Position numbers and translations under genes: made by a program. A model generated the notes under the pieces. That model was not told the origin of the DNA and made no database searches. It saw nothing but the letters and a program-made list of their open reading frames with translations. Below, piece by piece: positions 17,655-23,475 of a stretch of DNA of 64,000 nt. The stretch covers positions 3,596,865 to 3,660,864 of the forward strand of contig CP019797.1 in NCBI GenBank assembly GCA_002951995.1, read 5' to 3'. Numbering within the stretch: position 1 is the first letter of the stretch; each line of letters opens with the position of its first letter. Source of the stretch: Stenotrophomonas acidaminiphila (GTDB lineage Bacteria > Pseudomonadota > Gammaproteobacteria > Xanthomonadales > Xanthomonadaceae).

Positions 17655-18617
17655 TCAGGGCGCGGCGCTGCGCACTTCCACGGTGACATGCACGATCTCC
17701 TCGTGCACCGACAGCGCGCGGTGGAACAGCTCGGCGTCGACACCCGGCACGGTCGCCACTTCCATCGCGCAGGCGAAGCGGCCGCGGCCGACCTGCCAGA
17801 CATGCAGGTCGCTGATATGGGCCGGCACCGGCCCCTGTTCCACCGCCTCGCGGATCTCGGCCACCACCGGCGCGTCCATCTCCGCGTCGAGCAGCACCCG
17901 GCCGGTCTGCCGGATCAGGCCCCAGGCCCACACCGATACCAGCACCGCGCCGACGATACCCATCAGCGGGTCCAGCCACCACGCATTGAAGTACAGCCCG
18001 CCGAGCAGCGCGATGATCGCCAGCACCGAGGTGGCGGCATCGGCCAGCACGTGCAGGTAGGCCGAACGCTGGTTGAGGTCGTGCTCATGGTGGCCGTGGG
18101 GTTCGTGGCCATGGTCGTGATGAGGGTGGTGGTGCCCATGGTCGTGGTGGTGGTGGTCGTGCTGGTCGCGCAGCCACCACGCGCACAACAGGTTCACCGC
18201 CAGCCCCACCACGGCGATGGCGATGGCCTGCTGGTAGTGGATCGGGCTGGGCTTGAACACCCGCGCGATCGACTCGAAGGCCATCAGCCCGGCCACGCCC
18301 AGCAGCAGGATCGCGCTGGTGTAGCCGGCCAGGATCTCGATCTTCCAGGTGCCGAAGGCGAAGCGCGGGTCGTCGCGGTAGCGCCGCGCGCAGGCGTAGG
18401 CGAACGCGGCCAGGCCCAATGCCAGCGCATGCGAGCTCATGTGCCAGCCGTCGGCCAGCACCGCCATGGAGTTGAACCACCAGCCGCCGGCGATCTCCAC
18501 CACCATCATCACCAGGGTCAGCGCCATGGCACGGCGGGTGTTCTTTTCGGCCATCGGGTTGCCATGGCTGAACGCGTGGCTGTGCTGGCGGGAGCGGGCA
18601 AGGGTTTCGGGATTCAT
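17655..18617 (-). CDS. dmeF: Cation diffusion facilitator, Co(II)/Ni(II) efflux, DmeF type
   Basis: 320-residue inner-membrane metal/proton antiporter with six helices. The metal site is visible as ADGWHMSSHALALGL in helix 2 and YLHVLADAATS (HxxxD) in helix 5. Between helices 4 and 5 lies a loop of about 30 residues, nearly half of them His, with Asp and Gly between (residues ~150-180), a metal buffer typical of DmeF and ZitB-like proteins. Divergence from an RcnR-family repressor with all cobalt/nickel ligands identifies it as DmeF rather than a zinc exporter. The C-terminal cytoplasmic domain (HISDLHVWQVGRGRFACAMEV) is complete. Confidence 0.88.
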   Translation of the reverse strand: MNPETLARSRQHSHAFSHGNPMAEKNTRRAMALTLVMMVVEIAGGWWFNSMAVLADGWHMSSHALALGLAAFAYACARRYRDDPRFAFGTWKIEILAGYTSAILLLGVAGLMAFESIARVFKPSPIHYQQAIAIAVVGLAVNLLCAWWLRDQHDHHHHDHGHHHPHHDHGHEPHGHHEHDLNQRSAYLHVLADAATSVLAIIALLGGLYFNAWWLDPLMGIVGAVLVSVWAWGLIRQTGRVLLDAEMDAPVVAEIREAVEQGPVPAHISDLHVWQVGRGRFACAMEVATVPGVDAELFHRALSVHEEIVHVTVEVRSAAP

Positions 18618-18635
18618 GGCGTGACACCTTCTCAG

Positions 18636-18652
18636 ATACCCCCATAGGGTAT
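18636..18652. promoter_or_regulatory. Putative DmeR operator between dmeF and dmeR
   Basis: ATACCC (18636-18641) and GGGTAT (18647-18652) form an inverted repeat around CCATA, lying within the 46-base divergent gap, 11 bases from the dmeR start. TACC-C-tract-GGTA sites are the kind bound by RcnR/CsoR-family repressors, so one site could silence both genes. Confidence 0.7.
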
Positions 18653-18663
18653 ACGATCCGGCC

Positions 18664-18936
18664 ATGGCCCATATCCAGCGCGACAGGAAGAAGCTGCTCA
18701 CCCGGGTGCGCCGCATCGCCGGCCAGGTGGCCGCGCTGCAGCAGGCGCTGGAAGCCGGCGACGACTGCGACGCGGTCCTGGTGCAGATCGCCGCCGCCAA
18801 GGGCGCCATGCACGGGCTGATGCTGGAGGTGATGGCCGGCCATCTCAGCGACCATGTCGTGGCCGAGGCCGATCCGGCGCGGCGCGCGGACGAGGCCGGG
18901 GTGCTGCTGGAACTGCTCAGGCGGCACGCGCGGTGA
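18664..18936 (+). CDS. dmeR: RcnR/FrmR-family metal-responsive repressor DmeR
   Basis: 90-residue all-helical DNA-binding protein of the CsoR/RcnR family. Its N-terminus is MAHIQRDRKKLLTRVRRIAGQV. The four side chains used by RcnR to bind cobalt and nickel are all at the right positions: His3, Cys35, His60 and His64. The formaldehyde sensor FrmR and copper sensor CsoR lack this set, so cobalt/nickel sensing is well supported. It should repress dmeF (and itself) and release DNA on metal binding. Confidence 0.9.
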   Translation: MAHIQRDRKKLLTRVRRIAGQVAALQQALEAGDDCDAVLVQIAAAKGAMHGLMLEVMAGHLSDHVVAEADPARRADEAGVLLELLRRHAR

Positions 18937-19028: not shown

Positions 19029-19760
19029 ATGGCGAAAGCTTCCACACGGGCGCCCGTGCTGGGCCCGGCGTTCATTCGCCTGCTGGCCCGCTTCGGCGAC
19101 GCCGACCTCCCGCGCACGCCGCCGGTACTGACCGAGCGGCTGGCGCAGTGGTTCGACTGGAACCGCGCCATCACCCTGTCGCGCGCGCTGGACAACCGGC
19201 TGCCGGCCCCCGCCGACGGTCCCGCCTTCGACACCGCCCAGGAAGCCGAATGCGCGCGCCTGCGCCGTTCGCTGCTGGACACCATCGACGCCGACGTCGA
19301 CCTGTCCGCGCCGCGCCGCAAGGACGCCAGCGCCGCCAACATCGACCCCGGCTACCTGCCCTACCGGCAGCACTGCCTGGCCGCGCAGCGCGCGATGCAG
19401 GCGACCACCGGCCTGCTGCGCGGCCGCCTGCGCGACATGCTGGCACTGCAGTCGCCGGCCAAGGCACGCCTGGCCGAGGTCGACGCAGTGATGGAAGCCA
19501 CGCTCAGCCCGCGCGAACAGGCGCTGCTGGCGATCGTCCCCGGCCTGCTCGGCCTGCACTTCCAGCGCCTGCGCGATGCCGGCGCCCCGGATACCCCCGA
19601 TACCGCCGCCGCCGACGCGGCGGACGACACTCCCGCTGCTCCCGCCGCCGGCCCCTGGCTGGCACGGTTCCGCCAGGACATGCGCACCGCGCTGCTGGCC
19701 GAACTGGACGTCCGCTTCCACCCCATCGACGGCCTGCTCGCCGCGTTGCGCACCCGGTAA
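19029..19760 (+). CDS. DUF3348 protein, first gene of a putative motor operon
   Basis: 243 residues from MAKASTRAPVLGPAFIRLLAR. No membrane segment or known fold is visible; the sequence is mostly helical with an acidic-Ala linker (DTPDTAAADAADDTPAAPAA) near residue 200 and an amphipathic C-terminus (WLARFRQDMRTALLAELDVRFHP). It resembles proteins named DUF3348. It is followed after 10 bases by the DUF802 gene and forms an operon with three further genes. It is probably a cytoplasmic or membrane-peripheral partner of the motor; no function is established. Confidence 0.8.
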   Translation: MAKASTRAPVLGPAFIRLLARFGDADLPRTPPVLTERLAQWFDWNRAITLSRALDNRLPAPADGPAFDTAQEAECARLRRSLLDTIDADVDLSAPRRKDASAANIDPGYLPYRQHCLAAQRAMQATTGLLRGRLRDMLALQSPAKARLAEVDAVMEATLSPREQALLAIVPGLLGLHFQRLRDAGAPDTPDTAAADAADDTPAAPAAGPWLARFRQDMRTALLAELDVRFHPIDGLLAALRTR

Positions 19761-19770
19761 CCGCCTCTCC

Positions 19771-22167
19771 ATGTCCAGAAACCCCATCGTTCCCGTCGTG
19801 TTCCTTGCCGGCCTGCTGGCCGTGTGCTGGATCGGCATCGGCTACCTCGGCAGCCATCCGCTGGCCGCCGCGGTGGCCGCGCTGATCGCCGCGTGCTACC
19901 TGGCCGGCGGCTTCGAACTGCTGCGCTACCGGCAGGCCACCGCCACCCTGGTGCAGGCGCTGCCATCGCTGGGCGAGGCCGCCGGCGACCTCGACGGCTG
20001 GCTGTCGCGGCTGCAGCCGGGCCTGCGCCATGGCGTGCGGCTGCGCATCCAGGGCGACCGCGTCGGCCTGCCGGCACCGGCGTTGACCCCCTACCTGGTC
20101 GGCCTGCTGGTGTTGCTGGGCATGCTCGGCACCCTGCTGGGCATGATGGCGACCCTGCGCGGCACCGGGCTGGCGCTGGAAAGCGCCACCGACCTGGACG
20201 CCATCCGCAGTTCGCTGGCCGCGCCGGTCAAGGGCCTGGGTTTCGCGTTCGGCACCTCCATCGCCGGCGTCGCCAGCTCGGCCGCGCTGGGCCTGCTGTC
20301 GGCGCTGCTGCGGCGCGAACGCGCGCAGGCGGTACAGCAGCTCGATGCGGGCATCGCCACGCACCTGGGGCACCTGTCGCACGCGGTGCAGCGCCGCGAG
20401 ACCTTCCGCCTGCTGCAGGAACAGAACGCGCTGATGCCGGCCCTGGTCGAGCGCCTGCAGGCCCTGGCCGACACCCTGGAGCGGCAGCAGCACGACGCCG
20501 GGCAACGCCTGCAGGCCAGCCAGCAGGCATTCCACCAGCACAGCGAGGCGGCATGGACGCAGCTGGCCGGTTCGCTGCAGCAGGCGCTGCGTGACGGCAT
20601 CGCCCAGCAGGCCAACGCCGTCGGTGCCGCGCTGCAGCCGGTGGTGGACACCACCATGGCCGCGCTGGCGCAGAAGTCCGACCGCCTGCAGGCGGCCATT
20701 GAACAGGCCGTGCACCGCCAGCTCGACGGCCTGGACAGTGCCGTGCAGGGCACGGCCAGCGCCGCGCGCGAGAGCTGGAGCGCCGCCGTCGCCGAGCAGC
20801 AGCGCGGCAACGCAGCACTGGCCGATGGCCTGCAGCAGGCGCTGCAGCAGTTCGCCGCCACCTTCGAGCAGCGCTCGGCCGCGCTGGTCGACGGCGTGGC
20901 GACGCGGCTGGAAGACAGCAGCAGCCGGACCGCCGACGCCTGGAACAGCGCACTGGCGCGCCAGCACGACGCCCATGCGGCGCTGGCCGAGCGCAACGAG
21001 CAGGCACTGGTGGCCGCCGCCGAACACCTCGACCGGCATGCACGCGCGCTGGTCGACACGCTGGCACAGGCGCACGGCGAACTGCAGGCGGCACTGGCCG
21101 CGCGCGACGAACAGCAGCTGGCGCACTGGTCGCAGTCGCTGGCGGCGATGCTCGCCACGCTGGAGGAGAACTGGCAGCGCAACGGCGCGCAGGTCGCGCA
21201 GCAGCAGCAGCAGGTGTGCGACGCGCTGGCGCGCACCGCAGGCGAGGTCTCGGCCCAGCTGCAGGCCGCGGCCGGCGGCGCGCTGGAGGGCATCGCCGGC
21301 AACGCGCAGGCGCTGACCGACGCCGCCGCCGACTTCGCCCGGCGCAGCGACGCCATGATCGACGCCCTGCAGCGTTCGCATGGCGAACTGCAGGACGCCC
21401 TGCAGGCGCGCGACGCCGAGCGCTTGGCGCAATGGCGCGCTGCCTTCGCTACGCTGACCGGCGAGTTCGGCCAGCGCTGGGAACACAGCAGCGCCCAGGT
21501 CGCCGCGCAGCAGCAGCAGGTCTGCGACACCCTGGTACAGACCACCCAGGCGATCCACGCACAGGCGCAGGCACAGGCGCGCGATACCCTGGCCGAGATC
21601 GGGCGGCTGGTCGCCACCGCGTCCGAGGCGCCGCGCGCGGCCGCCGAAGTGGTCGCCGAGCTGCGCCAGAAGCTGTCCGACAGCATGGTCCGCGACACCG
21701 CCATGCTGGAAGAGCGCGGGCGCCTGTTGGAAACCCTGCAGACCCTGCTCGACGCGGTCAACCATGCATCGCACGAACAACGCGGCGCCATCGACGCGCT
21801 GGTCTCGACCTCGGCCGAGCTGCTGGAGCGCGTGGGCAGCCGCTTCAGCGCGCAGGTCGAAGGCGAGGCCGGGCGGCTCGACGCCGCCGCCGCGCACGTC
21901 ACCGGCAGCGCGCTGGAAGTGGCGAGCCTGGGCGAAGCGTTCGGCGGCGCGGTGCAGGCGTTCGGCGACGCCACCGGCAGCCTCAATGAACGCCTGCAGG
22001 CCATCGAATCGGCGCTGGAGAAATCGCTGGCGCGCAGCGACGAGCAGCTCGCCTACTACGTGGCGCAGGCACGCGAAGTGATCGAGCTGAGCATGCTGTC
22101 GCAGAAGCAGATCATCGGCCAGCTGCAGCAACTGGCCGGGACCGGCGACGGGGCCGCCGGCGCATGA
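19771..22167 (+). CDS. DUF802 protein: MotA/ExbB/ZorA-like stator with ~610-residue coiled-coil tail
   Basis: 798 residues. Two hydrophobic helices lie at ~8-47, then a helix at ~107-130 (GLLVLLGMLGTLLGMMATL) and another at ~155-182 (GFAFGTSIAGVASSAALGLLSALL). The latter two follow the pattern of the pore helices in MotA/TolQ/ExbB proteins. From residue ~185 to the end the chain is Gln/Ala/Glu-rich, Pro-poor helix, predicted coiled coil. It contains a repeat with a 102-residue period: HGELQ...QQQQVCD occurs at ~436-484 and ~538-586, with Cys483 and Cys585 equivalent. DUF802 is known as a repeated region. The stop overlaps the next start (ATGA). The layout resembles ZorA of Zorya defence, but no homology search could be run. 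Confidence 0.85.
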   Translation: MSRNPIVPVVFLAGLLAVCWIGIGYLGSHPLAAAVAALIAACYLAGGFELLRYRQATATLVQALPSLGEAAGDLDGWLSRLQPGLRHGVRLRIQGDRVGLPAPALTPYLVGLLVLLGMLGTLLGMMATLRGTGLALESATDLDAIRSSLAAPVKGLGFAFGTSIAGVASSAALGLLSALLRRERAQAVQQLDAGIATHLGHLSHAVQRRETFRLLQEQNALMPALVERLQALADTLERQQHDAGQRLQASQQAFHQHSEAAWTQLAGSLQQALRDGIAQQANAVGAALQPVVDTTMAALAQKSDRLQAAIEQAVHRQLDGLDSAVQGTASAARESWSAAVAEQQRGNAALADGLQQALQQFAATFEQRSAALVDGVATRLEDSSSRTADAWNSALARQHDAHAALAERNEQALVAAAEHLDRHARALVDTLAQAHGELQAALAARDEQQLAHWSQSLAAMLATLEENWQRNGAQVAQQQQQVCDALARTAGEVSAQLQAAAGGALEGIAGNAQALTDAAADFARRSDAMIDALQRSHGELQDALQARDAERLAQWRAAFATLTGEFGQRWEHSSAQVAAQQQQVCDTLVQTTQAIHAQAQAQARDTLAEIGRLVATASEAPRAAAEVVAELRQKLSDSMVRDTAMLEERGRLLETLQTLLDAVNHASHEQRGAIDALVSTSAELLERVGSRFSAQVEGEAGRLDAAAAHVTGSALEVASLGEAFGGAVQAFGDATGSLNERLQAIESALEKSLARSDEQLAYYVAQAREVIELSMLSQKQIIGQLQQLAGTGDGAAGA

Positions 22168-22811
22168 GCGACGAGATCGAGTTCGACGCCGAATCCAGCG
22201 CCACCACCTGGGCCGCGTTCGGCGACCTGATGTCGGTGCTGCTGGGCGCGTTCGTGCTGATCCTGGCCAGCGTCATCGGCATCCAGCTGCTGCTGCACAA
22301 CCGCCTGGACGAGGAAGTGAAGCAGCGCCAGGCCGAGGCCGCGCGGCTGAAGACCCTGGAGCAGGCACTGGCCGCGCCGCTGGCGGCCGGCCGGGTGACC
22401 GTGATCGACGGCCGCATCGGCATCAGCGGCAGCGTGCTGTTCGCGCTCAACTCCGACCAACTGCAGCCCGAGGGCCGCGAGCTGCTGCAGAGCATCGCCG
22501 GACCGCTGCGCGACTACCTGTCCGCGCGCGACGAGATCCTGATGGTCAGCGGCTTCACCGACAACCAGCCGGTGCGCGCGGCCAACGCCCGCTTCGCCGA
22601 CAACCTGGAACTGTCGGCGGCGCGCGCGCTCACCGTCACCCGCACCCTGATCACCGACGGCGTGCCGTCGTCGTCGGTGTTCGCCGCCGCGTTCGGCGCC
22701 GAGCAGCCGGTCAGCTCCAACGACGACGAGGCCGGGCGCGCGAAGAACCGGCGCGTGGAGATCGCGCCGATCCCGCGCCACGCGCCCGATGGCAAGGCCG
22801 ATGGCCGCTGA
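22164..22811 (+). CDS. OmpA-domain MotB/ZorB-like inner-membrane protein
   Basis: 215 residues. A short N-terminus is followed by one helix, FGDLMSVLLGAFVLILASVIG (residues ~19-40), in which Asp21 matches the proton- or sodium-carrying Asp of MotB/ZorB. A helical linker leads to an OmpA-type peptidoglycan-binding domain (residues ~70-205) with VLFALNSDQLQPEGRELL, ILMVSGFTDNQPV, NLELSAARALTV and AKNRRVEI. It should pair with the preceding MotA-like protein to form an ion channel anchored to the cell wall. The start overlaps the DUF802 stop, so the two are translationally coupled. Confidence 0.9.
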   Translation: MSDEIEFDAESSATTWAAFGDLMSVLLGAFVLILASVIGIQLLLHNRLDEEVKQRQAEAARLKTLEQALAAPLAAGRVTVIDGRIGISGSVLFALNSDQLQPEGRELLQSIAGPLRDYLSARDEILMVSGFTDNQPVRAANARFADNLELSAARALTVTRTLITDGVPSSSVFAAAFGAEQPVSSNDDEAGRAKNRRVEIAPIPRHAPDGKADGR

Positions 22812-23475
22812 GGCCGGCGATGTCCACGCGCGGCTGGAAGCCTGGCAGCAGCAGGGCGCCGACCGCATCGATCCGCTGCGCTTCGCGCTGATGCGCGCGC
22901 TGGCGCGGCACGCGGCGCGCCACGACGGCGCGCTGCGGCAGCACCTGGACGCGCGCCTGCGGGAACTGGCCGATGCCTATGCCGCACTGCCACCGCCCAC
23001 CGGGCTGCCGCGATCGACGCACGCCGCCGGCGCCAGCCCGCTGCGACAACTGCTGGACCGGTTCGGCCAGGCGCGGCCGGCGGCGGCACCGGCGCAGTCC
23101 GCCGCCCCGGCTGCACCCGGTGCAGCGGGCGACGCCGGCGACACCGTGCCGGTCGTCGATCTGGCCGCGCCGATGCCGGTACTGGACGAGTTCCAGCAGC
23201 TGTGGACCCGCATCCGCATCGACGGCCTGCTGCGACACTGCCTCGACGGCCTGCCCGAGGACGCCGGCCCGCTGCATTCCAGCGTGCTCACTTACCGCGC
23301 CATGGCGCTGATGCGCGAGGTCTGCCCCGATTACCTGCAGCATTTCGTCGCCTACACCGACGCGTTGTCGTGGCTGGAGCAGCTCGGCGGCGGTACCGCC
23401 GGTGGCAATGACGGCGATGGCGCCGCGGCCGCCCGCAGGCCCACGCGCAGCCAGCGGCGCAAAAAGCCGCAATGA
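22801..23475 (+). CDS. DUF2894 protein, last gene of the putative motor operon
   Basis: 224 residues from MAAEAGDVHARLEAWQQQGADRIDPLRF; the ATG overlaps the end of the OmpA-domain gene, and an in-frame ATG four codons upstream (22789) is also possible. No membrane helix. An N-terminal helical block, a Pro/Ala-rich linker (residues ~85-115), a C-terminal helical domain (LDEFQQLWTRIRIDGLLRHCLDGLPEDAGPL...) and a very basic tail (RPTRSQRRKKPQ) can be seen. The family is of unknown function. Position suggests a cytoplasmic accessory of the MotAB-like pair. Confidence 0.78.
   Translation: MAAEAGDVHARLEAWQQQGADRIDPLRFALMRALARHAARHDGALRQHLDARLRELADAYAALPPPTGLPRSTHAAGASPLRQLLDRFGQARPAAAPAQSAAPAAPGAAGDAGDTVPVVDLAAPMPVLDEFQQLWTRIRIDGLLRHCLDGLPEDAGPLHSSVLTYRAMALMREVCPDYLQHFVAYTDALSWLEQLGGGTAGGNDGDGAAAARRPTRSQRRKKPQ

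Follow-up and report, generated by a model that had tools for sequence, protein, structure and literature searches.

The operon that we analyzed spans positions 19029-23475 of a 64,000-nucleotide stretch of Stenotrophomonas acidaminiphila DNA (the window) and consists of four co-directional genes, in the order DUF3348, ZorA-like, ZorB-like and DUF2894, with a GC content of 0.71 to 0.74 against 0.71 for the window. The first gene (19029..19760, plus strand, as are all four) encodes a DUF3348 protein of 243 residues (Pfam PF11828, E = 1.2e-75; PADLOC PDLC00658, 6e-83). The second, from an ATG at 19771 to 22167, encodes a ZorA3/DUF802 protein of 798 residues (PADLOC PDLC00650, E = 0; Pfam DUF802, 3.3e-22), for which a MotA/ExbB-like membrane core followed by a long cytoplasmic coiled-coil tail is predicted. 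The third (22164..22811) encodes a ZorB3 protein of 215 residues (PADLOC PDLC00651, 4e-109; NCBIfam PRK09040.1, 4e-107), with one membrane helix containing Asp21 and an OmpA-like peptidoglycan-binding domain (Pfam OmpA, 3.9e-18), and the fourth (22801..23475) a DUF2894 protein of 224 residues (Pfam PF11445, 9.4e-41; PADLOC PDLC00652, 3e-63). ZorA3 and ZorB3 share 4 nt (ATGA), while DUF2894 has two candidate starts, the ATG at 22789, which would give a 228-residue protein and a 23-nt overlap with ZorB3, and the ATG at 22801, with an 11-nt overlap. The latter is the more likely start, because gene calling gave an 11-nt overlap at 50 of 78 loci and the long relatives in the alignment begin there. 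The four-gene layout, its order, its positions and its overlapping start and stop codons had thus been described correctly in the original prediction, with refinement of the ZorA start and, probably, of the DUF2894 start. Adjoining the operon, at 17655-18936, lie a divergent transporter of the cation-efflux family (Pfam Cation_efflux, 5.6e-40), which has a loop rich in His, and a metal repressor of the CsoR/RcnR type (2.8e-21), a pair that we take to resemble DmeR-DmeF.

By its profile matches the operon is a chromosomal type III Zorya, an already known system. Type III was named in 2021 for a zorA-zorB pair with a DUF3348 gene on one side and a DUF2894 gene on the other (PMC8565338), which is the arrangement found here, and all four proteins match the PADLOC type III models. 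The same study cloned and phage-tested a type III operon from S. nitritireducens DSM 12575 (NZ_LDJG01000021.1), which lowered the plating of phages in E. coli; all three systems that it tested are reported to have cut plating of at least one phage and protected from PVP-SE1 at an MOI below 0.1, and the two partner proteins were proposed to be regulators of ZorAB (PMC8565338). That operon is present in our data set (L037), with the same four genes in the same order and on the same strand as in the window, and its identity to the window proteins (ZorB, 95%; ZorA, 89%; DUF3348, 88%; DUF2894, 73%) makes it a close orthologue. Its immediate upstream neighbors differ from those of the window, and we found no difference at the level of type. 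The suggestion that the operon is uncharacterized and possibly new is therefore wrong, given the naming of type III and the phage tests of this orthologue. Elsewhere, type III is listed among the Zorya types in a study that reports structures for types I and II (PMC11890865) and is listed in a Variovorax (PMC11953036), the relevant passage of a study of Xylella mentions only ZorA and ZorD homologues (PMC9148166), and a repeated DUF802 architecture in R. solanacearum and X. axonopodis was noted as early as 2005 (PMC554113).

We compared the window with the best 80 of 494 matches, a set of 81 loci that leans to near relatives because only the best 80 were taken. The order DUF3348-ZorA-ZorB-DUF2894 on a single strand was recovered by gene calling in 71 of the 81 loci, and a tblastn check found all four genes in the same order and on the same strand in 77, one of which (L049) has its outer two genes cut by contig ends. 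The remaining four lack DUF3348 only, and there the sequence begins inside the operon. Because all four genes are kept in order on one strand in 77 of 81 loci, the arrangement is not due to chance. Both ZorA and ZorB were called in 80 loci, 75 of which show the 4-nt overlap.

The likeness to ZorAB that had been proposed from sequence pattern is borne out by profile comparison. The first ~180 residues of ZorA contain four hydrophobic regions, and a profile of this N-terminal part (28 sequences) matched, with an E limit of 0.1, a single chain of known structure, 8vvn_C (7e-6), which is the ZorA of the Shewanella type I ZorAB structure 8VVN (PMC11890865). With the ZorB profile, MotB and other OmpA domains rank first, and 8vvn_B is matched at 9e-7 across residues 10-207. 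The operon thus resembles type I Zorya (ZorABCD) in the ZorA pore region, in ZorB and in the long cytoplasmic tail, and differs from it in its DUF3348 and DUF2894 partners and in lacking a match to ZorC or ZorD. It resembles type II (ZorABE) through matches to the ZorA2 (1e-10) and ZorB2 (6e-6) models and differs in lacking a ZorE model match; the ZorA tail of the window is also longer than the type II rod of S. kujiense, which comprises residues 110-378 (PMC11890865). In alignments of 28 sequences, including the window, chosen from the 81 loci, ZorA T121, T162 and S163 and ZorB D21, D133, R154, R196 and R197 are invariant. Two features common to Zorya of all types, an Asp in the ZorB membrane helix and an OmpA-like domain on ZorB, are present here. 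ZorB D133 and R154 presumably act in the putative binding of peptidoglycan by the OmpA-like domain. By likeness to the published structures, ZorA T121, T162 and S163 are candidate residues of the Thr/Ser ring (PMC11890865).

The long coiled-coil tail of ZorA, also anticipated in the original prediction, comprises ~604 residues (approximately residues 195-798; 20355..22167). In all eight ZorA3 proteins tested of the 80 available, large hydrophobic residues repeat every 3.66-3.67 residues (3.66 in the window), and none of 200 shuffles of each protein gave so strong a period, which to judge from the sequence is the 11-residue coiled-coil pattern. The period weakens when Ala is counted as hydrophobic: no shuffle of 200 was as strong in three of the eight proteins, 3 to 23 of 200 were in the other five, and one of the eight peaks shifted to 3.58. 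Such a periodic tail is not special to type III, as strong periods of 3.54-3.66 were found in all six ZorA1-model loci measured (from ten loci, nine of which were tried, and only one of which scores above the model cut-off). Self-comparison and a unit HMM revealed an ~80-residue unit that occurs twice in the window tail, at 415-492 and 517-594 in the numbering of the repeat search, with a spacing of 102 residues. Among 80 ZorA proteins, 50 have one copy of this unit, 28 have two, one has three and one has four. Trimmed ZorA lengths in the same 80 proteins cluster at ~697, 748-753, 797-800 and 881-899, with others between, where starts are predicted, some of the short proteins are truncated because their contig stops, and many proteins of equal length are close kin. 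The tail-length clusters step by ~51-56 or 102 residues among relatives, steps that may keep the helical register. The number of 102-residue units was rejected as the cause of these steps, as a single unit was detected in most proteins of the longest class (881-899).

The presence of DUF3348 and DUF2894 in place of ZorC, ZorD and ZorE was likewise borne out by Pfam, and at the limits used neither protein matched any other Pfam, NCBIfam or PADLOC family, including nucleases, helicases and other enzymes. Comparison with solved sequences gave no convincing match for either (best E values of 0.68 for DUF3348 and 0.029 for DUF2894), and a common origin of the two was rejected (hhalign probability of 3%). 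DUF2894 is composed of an N-terminal helical module, a variable linker, a conserved C-terminal helical module and a basic end. An AlphaFold2 model of the window protein, built with 39 long forms (mean pLDDT of 74), places helices at 6-65 and 130-200, the region between them being of low confidence, and owing to its pTM of 0.46 we use it for the helix map alone. Of 78 called DUF2894 proteins, 53 have at least 170 residues and 25, mostly from S. maltophilia-group and Luteibacter loci, have 120-150 (for example, L059:10629-11009). The GPL motif, which belongs to the C-terminal module, is present in every one of the 25 short forms; in the five short-form loci examined tblastn detects only the later part of the protein. 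Some short calls may be start-site errors, as in L054, with 150 residues compared with 230 in its relative L053. The last 25 residues carry a net charge of +1 to +8 in all 78 proteins and of at least +3 in 77. DUF2894 is also the least identical to the window among the operon proteins compared, in all 27 rows; in S. maltophilia, for example, its identity is 31.5% compared with 74.5% for ZorB.

Taken with published work on ZorAB, these features lead us to favor, as a moderately probable reading, a chromosomal type III Zorya that works as a ZorAB motor feeding DUF3348 and DUF2894. Following the published model for types I and II, five ZorA and two ZorB subunits would form an ion-driven motor in the inner membrane, in which the OmpA domain holds ZorB to peptidoglycan and ions move by way of Asp21 against the ring of Thr/Ser residues in ZorA. 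If the cell wall were disturbed, for instance by an entering phage, ZorB would grip peptidoglycan and the ion path would open, whereupon ZorA would turn or be strained and its coiled-coil tail would carry the change into the cytoplasm to act on DUF3348 and DUF2894, in place of ZorC, ZorD and ZorE. DUF3348 would be the likely adaptor of the tail. The best candidate for the output is the C-terminal module of DUF2894 with its basic end, since the short forms that we checked have no other portion of the protein; we infer from this an output role for DUF2894 at the tail. Because neither partner matches an enzyme family or a convincing solved relative, the nature of a defense output is a guess. Our analysis shows directly the identity of the genes, their order, the conserved motor residues, the periodicity of the tail and the distribution of the operon. 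The short DUF2894 forms and the steps in tail length offer a way into the questions of how the signal travels and how it is read.

A possible, though less than probable, alternative is that the same motor is primarily a resident envelope device of the genus that senses or repairs wall damage, the phage protection seen in E. coli after induced expression being a by-product of how it responds when the envelope is damaged. The distribution of the operon speaks for this alternative. The genus of the window is Stenotrophomonas according to its closest named relatives (rpoB 99.4% identical to that of S. acidaminiphila). DUF3348 is present in 87 of 91 Stenotrophomonas species, including 83 of 86 near-complete genomes, and in 20 of 20 species of a second genus, probably Xanthomonas. 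Of the four Stenotrophomonas genomes without DUF3348, one (G318) has a full ZorB3 match, and in the other three (G308, G312 and G353) the ZorB3 search gave nothing beyond distant matches, confined to the OmpA part; G353 is 76% complete, which leaves two near-complete genomes of the genus with neither DUF3348 nor a match of ZorB3 strength, a point against a resident device. Each genome has a single full-length DUF3348 copy, and second matches proved to be adjacent pieces of the same frame (seven genomes) or weak hits below the cut-off (two genomes). This distribution is unlike that of type I restriction HsdM, our control, which was found in only 35 of the same 91 species with 0 to 4 matches each. 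A second control, ZorA1, was found in none of the 91 species; we do not take this as absence, since the ZorA1 search gave nothing in the control genomes either. In class genomes the NCBIfam ZorA1 model at an E value of 1e-20 matched 10 of 369, one of them above the cut-off. Few plasmids carry the operon, as DUF3348 was found in 27 of 72,556 records, the same 27 with ZorB and all of at least 366 kb, and a search of 50,697 phage records for DUF3348 found none. In the family sample DUF3348 occurs in 129 of 297 genomes, which represent only 19 of the 54 genera, and in the class sample it occurs in 7 of 274; this restricted occurrence counts against a resident device. In the main texts of open-access papers we found no note of the near-fixation of Zorya III, and this natural history, with near-fixation in the genus, is what is new here. 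One Stenotrophomonas-like type III operon lies on a contig whose record names Bacillus subtilis subsp. subtilis SK7B5 (L077:1-20639), where the neighboring families are common to L071 and L083; this record is probably mislabeled or contaminated.

The original prediction had proposed a survey of genomic context for defense islands. Among 136 neighboring genes at 18 loci, most are not defense genes, and at 1e-10 eight PADLOC models (mad3, AriA and six DrmC models) were matched with one member each, hence by at most eight genes, a count without a baseline. This scarcity also favors a resident device. The commonest Pfam matches among the neighbors were LysR regulators, TonB receptors, dehydrogenases and pirins. 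Loci of one clade have the same flanking genes (the S. maltophilia group, the S. nitritireducens group and most Xanthomonas), and these change from clade to clade.

The changing flanks count against a resident device, as does well-supported transfer between families. We sought rpoB in 30 genomes; two (L041 and L043) gave none and one (L048) was left out for a broken rpoB, so that the trees contain 27 (the pairwise identity table, of 378 pairs, includes the one bad rpoB row, L048, and its correlations are therefore left aside). In the rpoB tree the eight Rhodanobacteraceae form a single clade (SH-aLRT, 100), whereas in the tree of the four operon proteins Rhodanobacter and Fulvimonas are nested among Stenotrophomonas, within the S. 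nitritireducens-type clade (bootstrap, 100; SH-aLRT, 99). AU tests on the concatenation, with groups named after the identities had been viewed, rejected keeping those eight Stenotrophomonas rows together (p-AU = 4.4e-5) and a single Rhodanobacteraceae clade (3.8e-8). Gene by gene, the p-AU values for the eight-Stenotrophomonas constraint were 0.0025 for ZorA, 0.040 for DUF2894, 0.099 for DUF3348 and 0.42 for ZorB, so at 0.05 the first two reject it and the other two do not, and only the concatenation is decisive. The four-protein tree and these rejections therefore make at least one inter-family transfer, from Stenotrophomonas to Rhodanobacter/Fulvimonas, likely; in many other parts the history of the operon follows rpoB. 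A strict core gene set can be rejected, given this transfer, the changing flanks and the two near-complete genomes without the operon. A fixed core-genome role had been raised in the original prediction as the contrary case, and we found the operon to be nearly fixed in the genus, with no known core role.

Set against the general pattern of an accessory, mobile defense system (uneven occurrence among species, carriage on plasmids or phages, defense genes nearby), the observations are mixed, with presence in nearly the whole genus, few defense neighbors, few plasmids and no phages on one side and transfer and shifting flanks on the other. Presence in almost every species of the genus leads us to doubt that defense against viruses is the main or only job of the operon, and near-fixation makes accessory defense an uneasy fit. 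We also count against defense the distribution unlike that of HsdM, the lack of an enzyme match in the partners and published expression data from phage-infected B. cenocepacia, in which only the first one or two Zorya III genes changed expression; the systems that its authors call transcriptionally active do not include Zorya III (PMC12584637). Defense nevertheless remains the leading reading because of the inter-family transfer and of the published phage data, the protection given by the close orthologue being a further point against a resident device (PMC8565338). We would only tentatively propose that type III, rather than being mainly an accessory defense, is an envelope motor that has become fixed, in single copy, in the clade of Stenotrophomonas and probably in Xanthomonas, most likely a once-mobile ZorAB that turned into a resident sensor of wall damage, with DUF3348 and the DUF2894 C-terminal module as its cytoplasmic readout and with steps in the tail that may keep register. 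Should fixation extend to entire genera, a near-core gene set is being counted there among the "defense systems", and what it does natively becomes open to direct test by a simple deletion.

That the operon has nothing to do with defense and is an ordinary paralogue of TolQR/ExbBD or of a flagellar stator is very unlikely. The general architecture is the same as that of MotAB, ExbBD and TolQR, with a predicted membrane core, a conserved Asp and an OmpA domain as in MotB, and the best PDB matches of ZorB are OmpA domains of the MotB type. However, the window operon differs from these systems in its long tail and DUF partner genes, and ZorA3 scores 13.6 bits against Pfam MotA_ExbB (PF01618), below the curated cut-off of 22.9 bits, which five other proteins of the genome exceed, none of them within the window. 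By these models ZorA3 is closer to ZorA2 (1e-10) and ZorA1 (9e-10) than to MotA_ExbB (0.056). This score, the PADLOC type III models and the 8vvn_C match largely refute such a paralogue, and a tail of 600 residues together with the two DUF partners is as expected of ZorA3.

A new, undescribed system that merely resembles Zorya would be in keeping with the lack of any match of the four proteins, DUF3348 and DUF2894 included, to the PADLOC ZorC, ZorD and ZorE models at E up to 1, but it is refuted by the PADLOC type III models and by the published definition, which is this exact four-gene set (PMC8565338), and we regard it as improbable in the extreme. The names of the partners are swapped between sources, DUF3348 being ZorF and DUF2894 ZorG in PMC8565338 and the reverse (DUF3348, ZorG; DUF2894, ZorF) in PADLOC-DB 2.0.0, and the "zorBC" pairs that appear in the text of PMC8565338 look like a slip for zorAB.
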